NCBI RefSeq assembly: GCF_014643635.1
Contig: NZ_BMJV01000002.1
Location: 62,001 to 126,000 of the forward strand
Direction of reading: 5' to 3'
DNA from: Salipiger pallidus
GTDB taxonomy: Bacteria > Pseudomonadota > Alphaproteobacteria > Rhodobacterales > Rhodobacteraceae
Length of the DNA stretch: 64,000 nt
The position numbers and the translations under genes are program-made. Positions within the stretch are counted from its first letter, which is position 1. Every line of letters starts with the position of its first letter. Of this stretch, positions 7,811 through 35,915 are shown piece by piece. The notes under the pieces were generated by a model. It saw only the letters and a list, made by a program, of their open reading frames with translations. It ran no database searches and was not told the origin of the DNA.

Positions 7811-8718
7811 GCGTCTGCCTCCAGCTCCTCGACCCAAGGCGGATTGGCTCCGGCGCGGGACACGGTAACCGCCGCCGCCTTCGCGCCAAGCGCCACGGCG
7901 GGGGTGATGTCGTCCAGCGACGCGTCCTTCAGCAGGGTGCGCGACAGCAGCCCGGCGCGGTGCAGCCCGGCCAGAAGCCCAGCGTTGAACGTGTCACCGG
8001 CGCCGACGGTGTCGATCACCTCGGCCACCTCGGCGGGCACCTGCCGCTGGCCACCGGCGGTGTAGGCCACCACGCCCTCGGCGCCCCGGGTCTCCAGAAC
8101 CAGTGTCACCCCGCCCTGCAGAAGCTCAGCGGGGGCGGTGCCCAGCCACGCCATGTCCTCGTCCGACACCTTCACGATGTCGGCACGGCCGAGCATCGCG
8201 TCGAGGCGGGCACGATAGCGGGCCTCGTCACGAATGAAGCTGGGGCGGATGTTCGGGTCAATCATCACCACCCGGTCCCCGGCCTGCGCACAAAGCGCGG
8301 CATAGGCGTCGGCCCCGGGTTCCGACACGAGGCTGATGCCGCCGAAGAACAGCGCGTCGATGTCCGCGCCAAGCTCCGGCAGGTTGGCGTCCGTCAGCAT
8401 CCGCCCGGCGGTGTTCTCATCGTAGAAGGCGTATTGCGCGTGGCCGTCGGTCAGGGTGACGAAGGCCAGTGTCGTGGGCCGGTCCGACCGCGGCGCAAGC
8501 GAGGCATCGACGCGGCTTGCGGTCAGCGCCTCGGACAGGATCGCCCCGAAGAGATCGGTCGAGATGCCGCCGAAATACCCCGCCGGCGCGCCAAGGCGTC
8601 CCAGCGCAATGGCGGTGTTGAAGACCGCGCCGCCCGCAACTGGTGAAAACGCCGGCTCTCCGGTGGATGCGGTCCGGGGCAGCATGTCGATCAGCGATTC
8701 GCCGCAGCACAGGATCAT
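7807..8718 (-). CDS. PfkB-family carbohydrate kinase (fructokinase-like)
   Basis: A 303-residue ribokinase/PfkB-family sugar kinase. It starts [15 protein letters not shown], has the first family signature [15 protein letters not shown] at about residue 29 and the second, [14 protein letters not shown], at about 236, including the catalytic Asp of GAGD. The pattern is closest to fructokinases, which phosphorylate fructose to fructose 6-phosphate, but ribose, adenosine or 2-keto-3-deoxygluconate are other family substrates. GGAGGA lies just upstream of the ATG at 8718. It is the first gene of a two-gene unit with dtd. No sugar transporter is adjacent, so context does not narrow the substrate. 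Confidence 0.88.
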
Positions 8719-8971
8719 GGGAACTCCTCCTAGATGTTAGCGCCGAAACTACCCTGCCGGGCCCGTGGCGCACAAGGCCAGAGTCGCTGGCCGGATTTGC
8801 ACCAAATTCAAGGAGCCCGCTGGCCCGCCATGCCATTCTGACGGCATGAGGGAGCGCTTTGGTCATCCACCGAAGGCAGTCCCGGTTCATCGGGATACAG
8901 AACGTGACGCGCCGGGGGGCCAAGGAGGGGAGATCCCGGTCTCGTTCTTGTCCCAGCGATCGCCGTCAGGC

Positions 8972-8998
8972 CGGGGTGGTCTTTGCGGACCCACCCCG
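8972..8998 (-). terminator. hairpin downstream of the zinc-ribbon gene
   Basis: CGGGGTGG (8972-8979) and CCACCCCG (8991-8998) form an 8-bp stem with an 11-base loop, eight bases past the stop of the minus-strand gene ending at 9006. No T tract follows, so this is a weak terminator candidate. Confidence 0.35.
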
Positions 8999-9005
8999 TG
9001 ACGCC

Positions 9006-10091
9006 TTACTGCGATTGCGCGAAGACATAGCCAAGACCGCCGGCCAGGATCGCGCCGATGATGACCGCGATGGCGATTTTCCACGCGGACCACGGCCGTT
9101 CGCCCTGCACCCGTCCAGTGGTGCCGTTCACCACGAACCGGTAGGTTTCGCCCCGGTACTTGTAGGCGGCCAGCCAGACCGGCAGCAGCACATGCTTGAA
9201 GGTCACCGCAGACACGGACGTGTCCACGTGCTGGATGCGCTGGCGGTCGCCGCCGATGTCGAATTTCACATCCCGCTCGATCTGGCGGTCCATGATGGCG
9301 CGGGCCTCGACGAAGCCCTCGTCGAGGTCGACCTGGTAGCCCTCGGACCGGAACCCGGCAAGGAACTCGGGCCGGTAGGGCTCGAGCCGGCTGAGATCCC
9401 AAGGCTGCAGGGCGTCGGTGAATTTCTTCGGCAGCGAACGGGAGGCCAGCACCAGCACATCGTCGAAGAACCGCGACACCCGCCCCGATACGGGCCGCCA
9501 GCGGATTTCCGTGTGGCTGACCGTCTGCATCTTTCCGTCGCGCATGACGCGTCGGGTGGTGCGGTGGGCTGTGCCGCGCTGGCCGCGATACTGCGAGGCG
9601 GTCTGGGCATCGAAGGTCCAGTAGGGCACATATATGCCCTGCATCCGCCGCCCCTTGCGCGCGTATTCCTTCAGCCCGTTCGGCGCGAACCACAGGCCTC
9701 CCATCCAGTCGCCCATGGCCTTGTGCGCGGCCGTCTCGTCAAGGGCAAAGGGCAAAAGGCCCCGCGGTTTGATCTGTCGGTGGATGCCGGTGTCGGTCAC
9801 CACCGGAGTGGCGCAGAACGGGCATTCCGTGGCGTGGGTATCGGGCTGGAATTCGACTTCGGCACCGCAGTTGGGGCAGCGGGTGACGCGCAGGTCTTCC
9901 ATCTCCTGCAGGGGCAGCAGATTGTCGATGGCCTGCCGGAAATCGAGCTCGCGGATGCTGCCACCCCAGGGGCCGGCTTCGGCCATGGGTTCGGTGTGGC
10001 CGCAATGGTCGCAGACCAGCTGGCCCTTGTCGGGATCAAAGCGGTAGTCGGCGCCGCATTGCTCGCAGGGAAAGCGGTGTTCTTCGGTCAT
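9006..10091 (-). CDS. double zinc-ribbon membrane protein (YdjG-like)
   Basis: A 361-aa protein with two N-terminal four-cysteine zinc ribbons: Cys9/12 with Cys27/30, and Cys72/75 with Cys90/93. A central beta-rich region (MQGIYVPYWTFDAQTASQY, then HVLLPVWLAAYKYRG) and one C-terminal transmembrane helix (IAIAVIIGAILAGGLGYVF) follow. Databases often call such proteins TFIIB-type zinc-ribbon or, misleadingly, primosomal protein N prime. The architecture recalls B. subtilis YdjG, which is encoded with an SPFH protein (YdjI) and a PspA-like protein in a membrane-stress operon. Here an SPFH/GYF_2 gene lies 0.7 kb away on the same strand, with one plus-strand gene between. Role inferred: membrane adaptor in a YdjGHI-like complex. 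Confidence 0.8.
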   Translation of the reverse strand: MTEEHRFPCEQCGADYRFDPDKGQLVCDHCGHTEPMAEAGPWGGSIRELDFRQAIDNLLPLQEMEDLRVTRCPNCGAEVEFQPDTHATECPFCATPVVTDTGIHRQIKPRGLLPFALDETAAHKAMGDWMGGLWFAPNGLKEYARKGRRMQGIYVPYWTFDAQTASQYRGQRGTAHRTTRRVMRDGKMQTVSHTEIRWRPVSGRVSRFFDDVLVLASRSLPKKFTDALQPWDLSRLEPYRPEFLAGFRSEGYQVDLDEGFVEARAIMDRQIERDVKFDIGGDRQRIQHVDTSVSAVTFKHVLLPVWLAAYKYRGETYRFVVNGTTGRVQGERPWSAWKIAIAVIIGAILAGGLGYVFAQSQ

Positions 10092-10220
10092 CAGGGCCCC
10101 GTCGCGTGAGCATAGGTTTGCCGCCAGATCCTAGGCGCGGGCGCGGGGGGATGGAACCCGGTTTTCCTTTGCCCCGAGGCTGGCTAGGGTGGCGCGAAGC
10201 GGCGCAGCATTGGAGGAAAC

Positions 10221-30820: not shown

Positions 30821-30896
30821 CCCTCATCTGAGACGTGACGCCTCCAGCCCCCGGGCGCGTGCAAGAGGATGAGGGGGCGGCGACAATGGGGTCGCC
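30821..30896 (+). promoter_or_regulatory. structured pnp leader
   Basis: CCCTCATC (30821-30828) can pair with GATGAGGG (30868-30875), and GGCGAC (30879-30884) with GTCGCC (30891-30896). Leader stems cut by RNase III mediate autoregulation of pnp in E. coli, so this may be an equivalent; this is by analogy. Confidence 0.4.
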
Positions 30897-30951
30897 ACGA
30901 CACACGGGAGACGCGGGAGGGCCCGCGAGCGCTCCCTCACAGGATACGCAT

Positions 30952-33090
30952 ATGTTCAACATCTCGAAGAAAAGCATGCAGTGGGGCGAAGAAACCCTCA
31001 CTCTTGAAACGGGCAAGGTTGCCCGTCAGGCCGACGGTTCGGTCATCGCCACTCTTGGCGAGACCTCGGTCATGGCGAACGTGACGTTCGCTAAGGAACC
31101 CAAGCCCGGTCAGGATTTCTTTCCGCTGACCGTCCACTACCAGGAAAAATACTACGCCGCGGGTAAAGTGCCCGGCGGCTTCTTCAAGCGCGAGGCGCGT
31201 CCGACTGAAAAAGAGACGCTGACCGCACGCCTGATCGACCGTCCGATCCGCCCGCTGTTCGTGTCCGGCTTCAAGCATGAAGTGCTGGTCATGTGCACGG
31301 TGCTGTCCCACGACCTTGTCAACGATCCCGACATCGTCGCGATGATCGCAGCCTCCGCAGCGCTGACCATTTCCGGTGTGCCCTTCATGGGCCCGATCGC
31401 CGGTGCCCGCGTCGGCTACGAGGATGGCGAATACGTGCTGAACCCGACCGTCGACGACATGCAGGGGCTGCGCAACAACCCCGACCAGCGTCTCGACCTC
31501 GTGGTCGCCGGCACCAAGGACGCCGTGATGATGGTCGAATCGGAAGCCTACGAGCTGACCGAAGACGAGATGCTGGGCGCCGTGACCTTCGCGCACGAGC
31601 AGATCCAGCCGGTCATCGACCTCATCATCTCGCTGGCCGAAGATGCCGCGAAAGAGCCGTTCGACTTCCAGCCCCCGGATTATTCCGAGCTTTACGGCGT
31701 GGTGAAGGGCCTTGGCGAAGCGCAGATGCGCGATGCCTATGCCATCACCGACAAGCAGCAGCGCGTTGCCGCCGTCTCCGCCGCGAAAGAGGCGATCAAG
31801 GCCCAGCTGAGCGAAGAGCAGCTTGCGGATGCGAACCTCGGCCCGGCGTTGAAGAAGCTCGAATCGACCGTGCTTCGTGCCGACGTGGTCCGCAACAAGC
31901 GCCGCATCGACGGACGTGCACTTGATCAGGTCCGACCGATCGTCGCCGAAACCAAGGTGCTGCCGCGGACCCACGGTTCGTCGCTGTTTACCCGCGGTGA
32001 AACTCAGGGCCTCGTGGTGACCACGCTTGGCACCGGCGATGACGAACAGATCATCGACGCCCTGCACGGCAACTCGCGTAGCAACTTCCTGCTGCACTAC
32101 AACTTCCCGCCGTACTCGGTTGGTGAAGTGGGCCGCGTCGGCTCCCCGGGCCGCCGCGAGATCGGCCACGGCAAGTTGGCATGGCGTGCGCTTCAGGCCG
32201 TGCTGCCTGCGGCAACCGACTTCCCCTACACCATCCGCGTCGTGTCCGAGATCACCGAATCGAACGGCTCGTCCTCGATGGCGTCGGTCTGCGGTGGTTC
32301 GCTGTCCATGATGGACGCGGGCGTTCCGCTGAAGGCGCCGGTGGCCGGTGTGGCCATGGGCCTCGTGCTGGAAGATGACGGCGAATACGCAGTCCTTACC
32401 GACATTCTCGGCGACGAGGATCACCTCGGCGACATGGACTTCAAGGTCGCAGGCACCGAGAACGGCATCACGTCGCTGCAGATGGACATCAAGGTCGCGG
32501 GCATCACCCCCGAGATCATGAAGCAAGCCCTCGCCCAGGCGAAGGCAGGCCGTCTGCACATCCTCGAAGAGATGTCGAAGGCGCTGACCGAGGCCGGCGA
32601 ATTCTCGGTCCACGCTCCGCGCATCGAGACCATGCAGATCCCGACTGACAAGATCCGTGAAGTGATCGGCTCGGGCGGCAAGGTGATCCGCGAGATCGTC
32701 GAAGTGTCGGGTGCCAAGGTCGACATCAACGACGAAGGCATCATCAAGATCGCATCCGCCAACGGCGAGGCCATCCAGAAGGCCTATGACATGATCTACT
32801 CGATCGTTGCAGAGCCGGAAGAGGGCAAGGTGTACAAGGGCAAGGTCGTGAAGATCGTCGATTTCGGCGCCTTCGTGAACTTCTTCGGCAAGCGGGACGG
32901 CCTCGTGCACGTGTCGCAGATCGAGAACCGTCGCCTGAACCACCCCAGCGACGTGCTGAAGGAAGGCCAGGAAGTCTTCGTGAAGCTGCTGGGCTTCGAC
33001 GATCGCGGCAAGGTTCGTCTTGCCATGAAGATGGTCGACCAGGAAACCGGCGAAGAATCCGTCGGCAACAAGGAAGAGACCGCCGACTAA
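30952..33090 (+). CDS. pnp: polyribonucleotide nucleotidyltransferase (PNPase)
   Basis: A 712-residue 3'-5' phosphorolytic exoribonuclease of the RNA degradosome. Two RNase PH domains flank an all-alpha domain; conserved parts include [34 protein letters not shown]-type [34 protein letters not shown], and [13 protein letters not shown] with catalytic Asp residues. A KH domain ([15 protein letters not shown], about residues 563-577) and a C-terminal S1 domain ([22 protein letters not shown]) bind RNA. AGGA lies eight bases before the ATG; an earlier frame through the leader lacks a ribosome site. It is followed by a terminator. Confidence 0.98.
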
Positions 33091-33195: not shown

Positions 33196-34005
33196 TCAGT
33201 TCCGGGCCAGCGGTGGCGGCGCGCCCTCGGGGGCGAAAACTACCGAGGTGGTGGCCGCATCGGCCCAGAAACCTTCGAAGAACTCCGCCGGATCTACCCG
33301 TTCGCGCATCTCGTCCGTGAGGGCCAGAAGACCCGCCACGTCATCATAGGCCCAGCTCATCATCATCCCAGGCGCACTGACTGCCGACAGCTTTTCTCCG
33401 GGCAGCTCCGTTGCCGGGTTCAGCCGCGAGAACGACGACACCGGGCAGGGCCGCGACAGATCGCGCCATTCGCTCCAGAGCGTGACGTTGCTGATGCCGA
33501 GCGCCCGGAGATAACGTTCAACGTTCGGCTCGTAGATCGGCGGCAGCACGTCCTCTTCTGGCATGTAGAGGCCGGAGGTGGCGCAATGAGCCACCAGACG
33601 GTCGGCGATGTCGGTATCGTCGGGGTCGAGTTCTTGCGCCGTGACCTCGCGCCAGACGGTGCGTGCGAATTGGTGAAAATCGAAGGCGCCGATCTCCTGC
33701 GCGACGCGGGTCCAGGACACCGGGCTTCCGGTCTGCTTGATGAGATCGCCGAACCCCGGAGGCGCCGCGTTCTCGCGTTCTGGCATGCTGGCATCCATCA
33801 GCTCGGACGGATCGACGGAGAGCCGCATCGGGGACCACGCCGCGCTTTCGGGGGTATAGCCCGGCACCCGGAAGAACGGGTTGAGCACGATGAAGACGTG
33901 ATCGTAGTCGTAGCGCCACCAGTCGAGGATCGGCACGTTCTCGAACGGATGCTCGAGCCTGCGCGGCACGGCGGGCTCGAAATGGTCTTCGGGGTCTTTG
34001 TACAT
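33196..34005 (-). CDS. hypothetical protein, 269 aa
   Basis: A 269-residue soluble protein that I do not recognise. It starts MYKDPEDHFEPAVPRRLEHP, is rich in aromatic and acidic residues (VPILDWWRYDYDHVFIVLNPFFRVPGY, shown here only in part), and has no signal peptide, transmembrane helix or cysteine-rich motif; one HFEP- and several Trp-containing segments recur. Codon use is like the neighbours. AAGGGG lies six bases before the ATG. It is convergent with pnp and lies downstream of a candidate small RNA on the same strand. Such proteins appear to be restricted to relatives of this organism, by impression rather than search. Confidence 0.7.
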   Translation of the reverse strand: MYKDPEDHFEPAVPRRLEHPFENVPILDWWRYDYDHVFIVLNPFFRVPGYTPESAAWSPMRLSVDPSELMDASMPERENAAPPGFGDLIKQTGSPVSWTRVAQEIGAFDFHQFARTVWREVTAQELDPDDTDIADRLVAHCATSGLYMPEEDVLPPIYEPNVERYLRALGISNVTLWSEWRDLSRPCPVSSFSRLNPATELPGEKLSAVSAPGMMMSWAYDDVAGLLALTDEMRERVDPAEFFEGFWADAATTSVVFAPEGAPPPLARN

Positions 34006-34134
34006 CGGCGCCCCTTATCACGTGCGCATACGGCTTGACAGGTGCAACAGCACGGCAAACGCGGCGCATTGCGCTAAAATCGGCGCAGCTTGCGGCGTGA
34101 GACAGCTTTCGGGGGGGGGATTTCAGCGGGGCGG

Positions 34135-34207
34135 AAAAAAAGGCCGGGCACGAAGCCCGGCCAAGTCCAACAGGGAGGTGCATGTGAAACCGCACATGCA
34201 ACGGATA
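34135..34207 (-). ncRNA. candidate small RNA with exposed anti-Shine-Dalgarno stretch
   Basis: On the minus strand a sigma-70-like promoter is followed by about 73 bases with a clear two-stem layout: TGCATGTG and CACATGCA (8-bp stem, 34193-34200 with 34179-34186), a single-stranded CACCTCCCTG-containing linker, then GGCCGGGC and GCCCGGCC (8-bp stem, loop TTCGT, 34142-34162) ending in seven T residues. Promoter, stems and terminator together look like a stand-alone trans-acting sRNA; the CCTCCC stretch could pair with ribosome binding sites, as in the CcsR/cuckoo RNAs of Rhodobacter. It overlaps no convincing gene. Expression is inferred. Confidence 0.65.
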
Positions 34208-34212
34208 GGGGG

Positions 34213-34240
34213 CATATATATCCTGTGTTTCCGCAAGCAA
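34213..34240 (-). promoter_or_regulatory. sigma-70-like promoter for the small RNA
   Basis: Reading minus: TTGCTT (34240-34235), 16-base spacer, TATATG (34218-34213). Transcription would start near 34207, six bases before the first stem of the candidate RNA. Confidence 0.5.
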
Positions 34241-34400
34241 TGTGCAACTTGGCCGCAGGCGATCACGAGATCGGGTTTTCCCGTAGGATCGGCAAGAACA
34301 TGCCTTCGGAACTTCGCGCGGAGCGACGTGTTGAGGTGACAGAGGCGGCCCATCGCGTCGCCACGCCCCTTTTTCCGAATTCCCGACACGCGAGGCCTCC

Positions 34401-35915
34401 ATGTCCACCAAACCGACCCTCACCTCCACGTCTGGCGCTCCGGCCCCTACGAACCGCACCTCGCAGACCGCCGGCAGCCGCGGGCCAGTGCTGATGCAGG
34501 ATCACCAGCTCCTGGAGAAGCTTGCCCACCAAAACCGCGAGCGCATCCCTGAGCGGACGGTGCACGCCAAGGGCTGGGGGCTTCAGGGCCATTTCACCGT
34601 AACGCATGATATCTCGCAATACACTTGCGCAGACCTGTTTTCGCAAGTGGGCAAGACCACCGAAGTCCTGTCGCGCTGGTCCACCGTGGCCGGTGAACGT
34701 GGCGCGGCGGATGCCGAACGCGACGTGCGCGGCTTTGCCCTGAAGTTTTACACCGAGCAAGGCAACTGGGACATGGTGGGCAACAATACCCCCATTTTCT
34801 TTGTGCGTGATGCCTACAAGTTCCCGGATTTCATTCACACGCAGAAGCGCCATCCCAAGACCAATATGCGTTCGCCCGAAGCGATGTTCGACTTCTGGGC
34901 CGGGCAGCCGGAGTCGGTGCACCAGGTGACGATCCTGATGTCGGACCGCGGCATCCCCGAGACGCCCGCGCACATGAACGGCTATGGCTCGCACACCTTC
35001 TCCATGTGGAATGCCAAGGGTGAACGCCACTGGGTGAAGTTCCACTTCAAGACTCAGCAGGGCCATGACTGGCTGTCCGATGCCAAGGCCGCCGAGATCA
35101 TCGGCCAGACGCGCGAAAGCTATCAGGAAGCGCTGTGGAATATGATCGAACAGGGCAAGTTCCCCAAGTGGACCATGTACATCCAGGTGATGAAGGAAGA
35201 AGAAGCGCTTGAGACCGACTTCAACCCGTTCGATCTGACCAAGGTATGGCCGCAGGGCGATTACCCGCTGATCGAAGTGGGCGAGCTGGTGATGGACACC
35301 TTCCCCGAGAACTACTTCCAGATGATCGAGAACGCGGCCTTCAACGTGAACAACGTGGTGCCCGGAATCGGTTTCAGCCCGGACAAGATGCTTCAGGCCC
35401 GCATATTCGCCTACGCGGATGCGCACCGCTACCGCCTTGGCACCCACTACGAGATGCTGCCCGCCAACCAGCCCAAGGCGTCGAAGGTGCAGCATTACCA
35501 CAAGGACGGAGCCATGCGGTTCTTCTCGAACGATTTCGGCAATCCCGACGCCTATTACGAGCCGAACCAGTATGATGGCCCCGTGGCGGATGAAAGCCTG
35601 CAGGAGCCGCCGATGCGCATCGATCCCGAGGCCGTTGCCGCCCGCTTCGACCAGGAAGAAAGCGACATCGACTACGTCCAGCCGCGCGCTCTTTACGAGC
35701 GGGTGCTCAGCGACGAGGAGCGGGATCGCCTCCACAGGAACATGGCAGGGGGCATGGCGCCCTGCACTGACGGCGTGAAGGAGCGCTGGCTCACGGTCCT
35801 GAAAAAGGTGCATCCCGACTACGAGGCCGGTGTGCGCCGCGCGCTCGAAACCGGTGAGCATGGCGATCCGTCGCTTCCGGTGACCGACGACACGCCGATC
35901 CGCGCCGCCGAGTAA
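34401..35915 (+). CDS. katA: monofunctional haem catalase
   Basis: A 504-aa small-subunit (clade 3-type) catalase that disproportionates hydrogen peroxide. The distal His is in ERTVHAKGWGLQGHF, the distal Asn in VGNNTPIFFVRD, and the proximal Tyr ligand in ARIFAYADAHRYRLG; the NADPH-region pattern and the long EVGELVMDTFPENYFQMIENAAF stretch (in part) are as in the family. GAGGCCTCC lies just upstream of the ATG. About 390 bases of non-coding sequence precede it, holding a divergent small RNA candidate; no OxyR site could be identified by eye. It is followed by a repeat element and convergent salvage genes. Confidence 0.95.
   Translation: MSTKPTLTSTSGAPAPTNRTSQTAGSRGPVLMQDHQLLEKLAHQNRERIPERTVHAKGWGLQGHFTVTHDISQYTCADLFSQVGKTTEVLSRWSTVAGERGAADAERDVRGFALKFYTEQGNWDMVGNNTPIFFVRDAYKFPDFIHTQKRHPKTNMRSPEAMFDFWAGQPESVHQVTILMSDRGIPETPAHMNGYGSHTFSMWNAKGERHWVKFHFKTQQGHDWLSDAKAAEIIGQTRESYQEALWNMIEQGKFPKWTMYIQVMKEEEALETDFNPFDLTKVWPQGDYPLIEVGELVMDTFPENYFQMIENAAFNVNNVVPGIGFSPDKMLQARIFAYADAHRYRLGTHYEMLPANQPKASKVQHYHKDGAMRFFSNDFGNPDAYYEPNQYDGPVADESLQEPPMRIDPEAVAARFDQEESDIDYVQPRALYERVLSDEERDRLHRNMAGGMAPCTDGVKERWLTVLKKVHPDYEAGVRRALETGEHGDPSLPVTDDTPIRAAE

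Follow-up and report, generated by a model that had tools for sequence, protein, structure and literature searches.

SorX of Rhodobacter sphaeroides is a standard example of a small RNA (sRNA) cut from the 3′ end of an mRNA, and in that species it functions in the repression of potA and in resistance to singlet oxygen. According to the available parts of the source papers, its precursor is the ompR1 (RSP_0847) mRNA, whose 3′ end yields SorX by a cleavage in which RNase E is involved (PMC6238624, PMC8625941). An RNA named RSs2461 is described, in the accessible text of another source, as a processing product of an RSP_0847 co-transcript that arises from an RpoHI/II promoter (PMC3320616); RSs2461 is therefore SorX. 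ChIP-seq of FnrL in R. sphaeroides located a binding site where the RSs2461 promoter is presumed to lie; as far as the available text states, a regulatory effect was not established (PMC4263372). FnrL binding at SorX is thus already known from that species.

Here, we compare this system with a locus of Salipiger pallidus (genome G000) that lies in a 64-kb window, meaning the whole stretch of 64,000 nucleotides that was analyzed. Our main reading, to which we assign a probability of about 85%, is that SorX at this locus acts in trans, has been freed from ompR1, carries its own promoter and terminator, and has lost the class II FnrL box of its relatives. Transcription from the window's promoter, the targets of the RNA, and its physiological role are what we infer from these comparisons.

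Identity and structure of the window's SorX

The Rfam SorX family (RF02784) matched positions 34136–34206 of the minus strand with 84 bits (cut-off 46.6, E = 3.1 × 10⁻¹⁹), and the match spanned the whole model, positions 1–73 of 73. When the 64-kb window was searched against Rfam, this was the sole match above a family's cut-off; at a permissive threshold, the runner-up was SorY, with 38.6 bits against a cut-off of 111. Within the window's genome, the SorX cut-off was reached at this one place only, and the next SorX-like place, on contig C1, scored 46.4 bits and was more SorY-like (59.2 bits, below the SorY cut-off). A survey of the family identified a SorX match at E ≤ 0.001 in 379 of 394 genomes and above the cut-off in 311 of them, and SorX exceeded the cut-off in all 20 genomes of the genus survey. 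The place itself is orthologous, sharing the same 269-aa gene and pnp as neighbors with genus members in which ompR1 precedes SorX. As judged from sequence, the window RNA is a real sRNA and the orthologue of the already named SorX. The initial annotation had described a Rhodobacter-type stress sRNA, divergent from a catalase gene, in which an unpaired segment could base-pair with ribosome-binding sites, and this description is right. It had likened the RNA to the CcsR/cuckoo sRNAs of Rhodobacter; the family is SorX and not CcsR.

By the Rfam model and the fold, SorX is a 71–72-nt RNA at 34135–34206 (minus strand), its 5′ end being placed at about 34206 by the model. Folded from 34206 to 34135, it reached −31.7 kcal/mol (z = −4.43), and none of 200 shuffled sequences was as good. 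The fold and covariation both delineate a 5′ stem-loop of 8 bp (34179–34200, minus strand), in which 34200–34193 pair with 34186–34179; across 61 sequences, six of the seven tested pairs had changed on both sides and 98.4% of cells were paired. An intrinsic terminator (34135–34162, minus strand), predicted from a terminator scan, the fold, and covariation, consists of eight G–C pairs (34162–34142) and a T7 run ending at 34135. The scan of 33500–34900 recovered it among three terminator-like sites, against 1.3 expected in shuffles. For both stems together, 97.7% of cells in the 61-sequence SorX alignment were paired and double changes were observed in 11 of 15 pairs. Double changes occupied 98 cells, whereas 500 shuffles gave 20.6 on average and never as many, and the signal was lost when the stem partners were slid. 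Every element of the initially annotated layout (TTGCTT, a 16-nt spacer, TATATG, an 8-bp stem, a linker, a further 8-bp stem, and seven U residues) was recovered, all on the minus strand. Compensatory changes in the two stems, which the same annotation had named as a check and whose absence it would have counted against the RNA, are strong.

Between the stems lies a single-stranded linker, ACCTCCCTGTTGGACT (34163–34178, minus strand), which is the likely region of pairing with target mRNAs given the conservation of CTCCCTGTTGGA, invariant across the 61 aligned SorX sequences. The linker contains CCTCCCTG and is also seen as the ACCTCCCTGTTGGAC linker of the minus strand. Stem 1 ends within the first CA of CACCTCCCTG, and the single-stranded part starts at ACCTCCC. 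The RNA of about 73 nt with a linker that had been annotated thus stands as a small RNA, with its length and the start of its linker revised. The target-pairing role of the linker is one that we presume by analogy with SorX and its relatives; the exposed ACCUCCCUGUUGG segment would pair with the ribosome-binding regions of target mRNAs. The potA query TIGR01187 yielded 26 matches in the window's genome and 21 in G051, from which an orthologue was not singled out. Of sixteen candidates fetched, four lacked an identifiable start codon; the other pairing energies fell inside the background of 72 window starts, with the exception of one R. sphaeroides candidate, for which 8% of the background was as low.

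Other RNAs of related appearance were observed in the same genome. The SorY-like RNA on contig C1 (168438–168505, L002; 59.2 bits for SorY and 46.4 for SorX) has counterparts in relatives (L058–L067), which suggests that Rfam's model of SorY is overly stringent here in this genus. These RNAs are preceded by a conserved stretch, CTTGATCGACTCA...CATATT. Two weak SorX-like places below the cut-off, C1:67955–68017 (L003, 29.8 bits) and C5:386127–386203 (L004, 29.5 bits), are possibly further RNAs of the SorX kind; the former shows CTTCCTCCCTGTCAGAC before a terminator.

Gene order around SorX and the window's promoter

A catalase gene (34401–35915, plus strand; 504 aa; Pfam PF00199, 582.7 bits) diverges from SorX. 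Downstream of SorX lies the 269-aa gene (33196–34005, minus strand), a neighbor that is conserved at most genus loci for which a wide stretch was examined, and facing it is pnp (30835–33090, plus strand), encoding polynucleotide phosphorylase as named from its sequence. The latter marks a conserved neighborhood and was present at all ten wide SorX loci of the genus. Neither Pfam nor NCBIfam gave a match for the 269-aa protein at E 0.001, and it is 47–63% identical to its genus counterparts.

We compared gene order across 130 SorX loci, comprising the window, 30 supplied loci, 19 genus loci (each the top match of its genome), and another 80 loci among the matches listed. This is a non-random set that leaves out the other listed places, including those located on short contigs, as well as every match with a lower score; the family genomes each come from a different genus or nearly so, yet they are related and not independent draws. 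Within the stretch examined, ompR1 lies upstream of SorX on the same strand at 123 of the 130 loci, at a distance within 200 nt in 122 cases and farther away in one. The seven loci without an upstream ompR1, the window included, all come from the window's genus. In G401, presumably S. marinus, and in G408, the order is ompR1, SorX, and the 269-aa gene, with pnp facing. G088, G398, and G397 (all three taken to be S. bermudensis) and G411 (taken to be S. thiooxidans) have the same order, except that ompR1 and SorX are separated by a catalase gene that converges on the former and diverges from the latter. The window and G407 retain catalase, SorX, the 269-aa gene, and pnp in this order, and ompR1 is absent from the place, being found instead at C3:232657 in the window's genome and at C1:581541 in G407. 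Catalase thus takes the place of ompR1 beside SorX in the window and five other genus genomes. In the window's genome, SorX is on contig C2 and ompR1 on contig C3, and inspection by eye revealed a G+C-rich hairpin-like stretch with a T run, and no SorX, behind the displaced ompR1. The two genes are also about 4.5 kb apart in G409, which we take to be Citreicella sp. C3M06 and which is without such a catalase gene, and about 0.7 kb apart in G396. In a tree of ompR1, the six catalase-linked genomes fell inside one group of 11 (support 87/88), with two changes needed; a single origin of the catalase insertion is compatible with this tree but not demonstrated by it.

Two further observations were made at these places. 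In G397, ompR1 and pnp are each in two pieces in different frames (L172:4189–4871 and 7938–10183); both are whole in its near relatives, and the breaks are either sequencing errors or true damage. A TPP riboswitch (L169:6897–7012, minus strand, contig C3 of the window's genome; 69.5 bits, cut-off 54.3) lies a few kb from the displaced ompR1.

Since ompR1 is elsewhere, SorX of the window cannot come from an ompR1 transcript, and, with a divergent catalase gene on its upstream side, it needs a promoter of its own. The two marks of the 3′ UTR-derived form, a position behind ompR1 and excision from its mRNA, are therefore absent here. A −10 element, TATATG (34213–34218, minus strand), with a presumed promoter function, occupies −12 to −7 relative to the 5′ end of SorX, and a putative −35 element, TTGCTT (34235–34240, minus strand), agrees with the consensus at three of six positions. 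Together they match TTGACA/TATAAT at 7 of 12 positions. In an alignment of six catalase-linked loci, the TAT of the −10 element (34218–34216) is invariant and the −35 element is not conserved. A promoter scan of 33500–34900 listed none, and among 2000 shuffles 3.4% scored as high at the fixed −10 position. The case for a promoter belonging to SorX thus comes from gene order, from position, and from partial conservation rather than from strength; the one proposed in the initial annotation is demanded by gene order and weak by consensus taken alone. A promoter of the RpoH type seems unlikely, as by eye the distance from CTTG to TATATG is too short when set against that seen ahead of the genus's SorY-like RNAs. 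The 194-nt region shared by SorX and catalase would allow their co-regulation, which is possible, and no co-regulation site was identified within it.

SorX might still be cut from a longer RNA, for example one that starts upstream and runs antisense through the start of catalase, with no promoter at the SorX 5′ end. Processing is the published route in R. sphaeroides, according to the accessible text (PMC6238624, PMC8625941), and the promoter in the window is weak; however, the intergenic 194 nt upstream contains no gene in the SorX orientation, the catalase gene that follows is transcribed in the opposite direction, and the −10 TAT is conserved at the right distance in six loci. We regard such processing as unlikely at this locus.

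Far less credible is a CcsR-type RNA acting on C1 metabolism, the identity and role that had initially been suggested. Both kinds of RNA share an exposed CCTCCC stretch, but the window RNA matches SorX over its full length and above the cut-off. It is also a single copy with the 269-aa gene, pnp, and catalase, and apparently no ccaF1-like gene, as neighbors, whereas the CcsR RNAs are described, in the available part of the source, as four in a row behind ccaF1 (PMC8625941). The Rfam match and the neighbors thus speak against a CcsR identity, and the link to C1 metabolism gives way to the role reported for SorX in the accessible text, the repression of a polyamine transporter subunit (PMC9438474). 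We give the least credence of all to a small protein from the GTG-started 51-codon frame at 34184 (plus strand), originally offered as a weaker alternative. The frame is open in the window, but it is not conserved: early stops interrupt it in all five catalase-linked relatives, its best tblastn match among the examined loci had E = 0.46, and the region covaries as an RNA of the opposite strand.

An FNR-type box before SorX in relatives

Many relatives carry TTGA-N6-TCAA upstream of SorX, commonly in the form cTTGACnCAGATCAAAG. With its center at −60 to −35, the exact box was found at 40 of 130 loci, against a mean of 0.07 in 200 shuffles, and a box with at most one mismatch at 56, against a mean of 1.8; the remaining 74 loci had none of this kind at −60 to −35. 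A control scan 500 nt upstream gave 0 of 130, and downstream there was no exact box and one with a single mismatch among the 130. When the box is taken as centered at −41.5, TA falls exactly at −12/−11 in 43 of the 56 box loci, compared with at most 16 at the other scanned offsets. Box and TA at class II spacing, searched over 130 nt, occurred together at 44 of 130 loci, against a mean of 0.14 in 100 shuffles. The start predicted at these 44 loci is the SorX 5′ base in 18, lies 1–15 nt upstream in 25, and lies 29 nt upstream in one, R. sphaeroides; as a simple rule, the best fit to NTCCC, defined the SorX 5′ end at every locus, these offsets may err by at least one base. The box with at most one mismatch was present at 51 of 107 loci whose ompR1 stop lies 31–200 nt away, at none of 15 with a distance of 30 nt or less, and not at the one locus beyond. 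These box statistics and distances indicate that two routes to SorX, 3′ UTR processing and an own promoter, probably both exist.

FnrL is encoded in the window's genome (NF045989, 463.5 bits, cut-off 300), with FNR-type boxes between fnrL and hemN (TTGACCCAGATCAA) and before ccoN (TTGATGCAGATCAA), where hemN and ccoN are names that we assigned presumptively from sequence. From the conserved box, we infer that SorX is under FnrL control in the relatives. In G051, SorX is located at 2598225 on contig C4 (L035), which fits the 5′ end of 2,598,224 given in the available text (PMC6238624), and on this ground we take G051 to be R. sphaeroides. There, TTGCGTGAGATCAA is followed by TATAAA at class II spacing, and the start predicted from them, 2598196, disagrees with the end of the 116-nt pre-SorX reported in the same text, 2,598,182 (PMC6238624). 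Within the accessible portions of the literature searched, we found no account of the conservation or spacing of the SorX FnrL box or of the Salipiger split, and no description of a SorX promoter outside Rhodobacter. Seven genus loci (L040, L044, L045, L050, L051, L054, and L055) have another conserved block in place of the FNR box; located between ompR1 and SorX, it comprises ACTTGGTGATA and a sequence resembling a hairpin, CCTAGCCTTTyGGATAGG.

In the window, a decayed remnant of an FNR-type box (34249–34262, minus strand) aligns with the box of five relatives. The best box within 130 nt of SorX has three mismatches of eight, and TTGA-N6-TCAA at −41.5, the class II arrangement, is absent. G407 retains the exact box, and each of the four other catalase-linked loci has one with a single mismatch. 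A scan for the strict pattern TTGANNNAGATCAAAG gave a single occurrence in G407, the one at SorX, and none in the window's genome. Because the box has decayed here and is kept in the catalase-linked relatives, FnrL input to SorX has probably been lost in this genome.

We propose that SorX of the window would be an independent transcript, with its own promoter driving a start near 34206 and its own terminator ending it. Members of this lineage have a catalase gene that separates ompR1 from SorX and is directed away from the latter, and in this genome ompR1 is found elsewhere. The promoter is probably not new, as many relatives in which SorX follows ompR1 nevertheless appear to possess a class II promoter of the FnrL type directly ahead of SorX; the copy in the window would have kept the −10 element and lost the FnrL box. 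A broader proposal, to which we give slightly better than even odds, is that SorX is independent and oxygen-regulated through a class II FnrL promoter in many Rhodobacteraceae, with a start that coincides with the SorX 5′ end or lies no more than about 15 nt from it, and with the 3′ UTR route as only one of two; in logic, this would make SorX a counterpart of E. coli FnrS. Such a ready promoter would have let the Salipiger lineage part SorX from ompR1 by a catalase gene, and the subsequent loss of FnrL input in the window would have left two divergent genes, SorX and catalase, that may be regulated together. By these gene orders, SorX has persisted after separation from its host gene, and, to judge from the box statistics, a promoter of its own that answers to an oxygen sensor may be available to SorX in many species. 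This raises the questions of how 3′ UTR-derived sRNAs become independent genes and why FnrL would switch an sRNA of oxidative stress.

Comparison with known systems

FnrS of E. coli resembles SorX of the relatives in being a stand-alone sRNA probably switched by an FNR-type regulator; the window's SorX differs in lacking the FNR box, and the available text reports no sequence similarity between FnrS and RSs2461 (PMC4263372). SorY (RF02651) has a linker and a terminator of the same type as the window RNA and, according to the accessible part of the source, its own promoter (PMC6238624), as we propose for SorX here; the window RNA nevertheless falls short of the SorY cut-off, and the RNA on contig C1 is the better SorY candidate. 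The closest likeness is to SorX of R. sphaeroides (RSs2461), with which the window RNA shares sequence and structure over the whole model; the two stems, the linker with CTCCCTGTTGGA, and the terminator are all common to them. The two differ in their setting: the R. sphaeroides RNA lies behind ompR1 and, in the available description, is cut from its mRNA (PMC6238624), whereas the window's SorX diverges from catalase and requires a promoter of its own.
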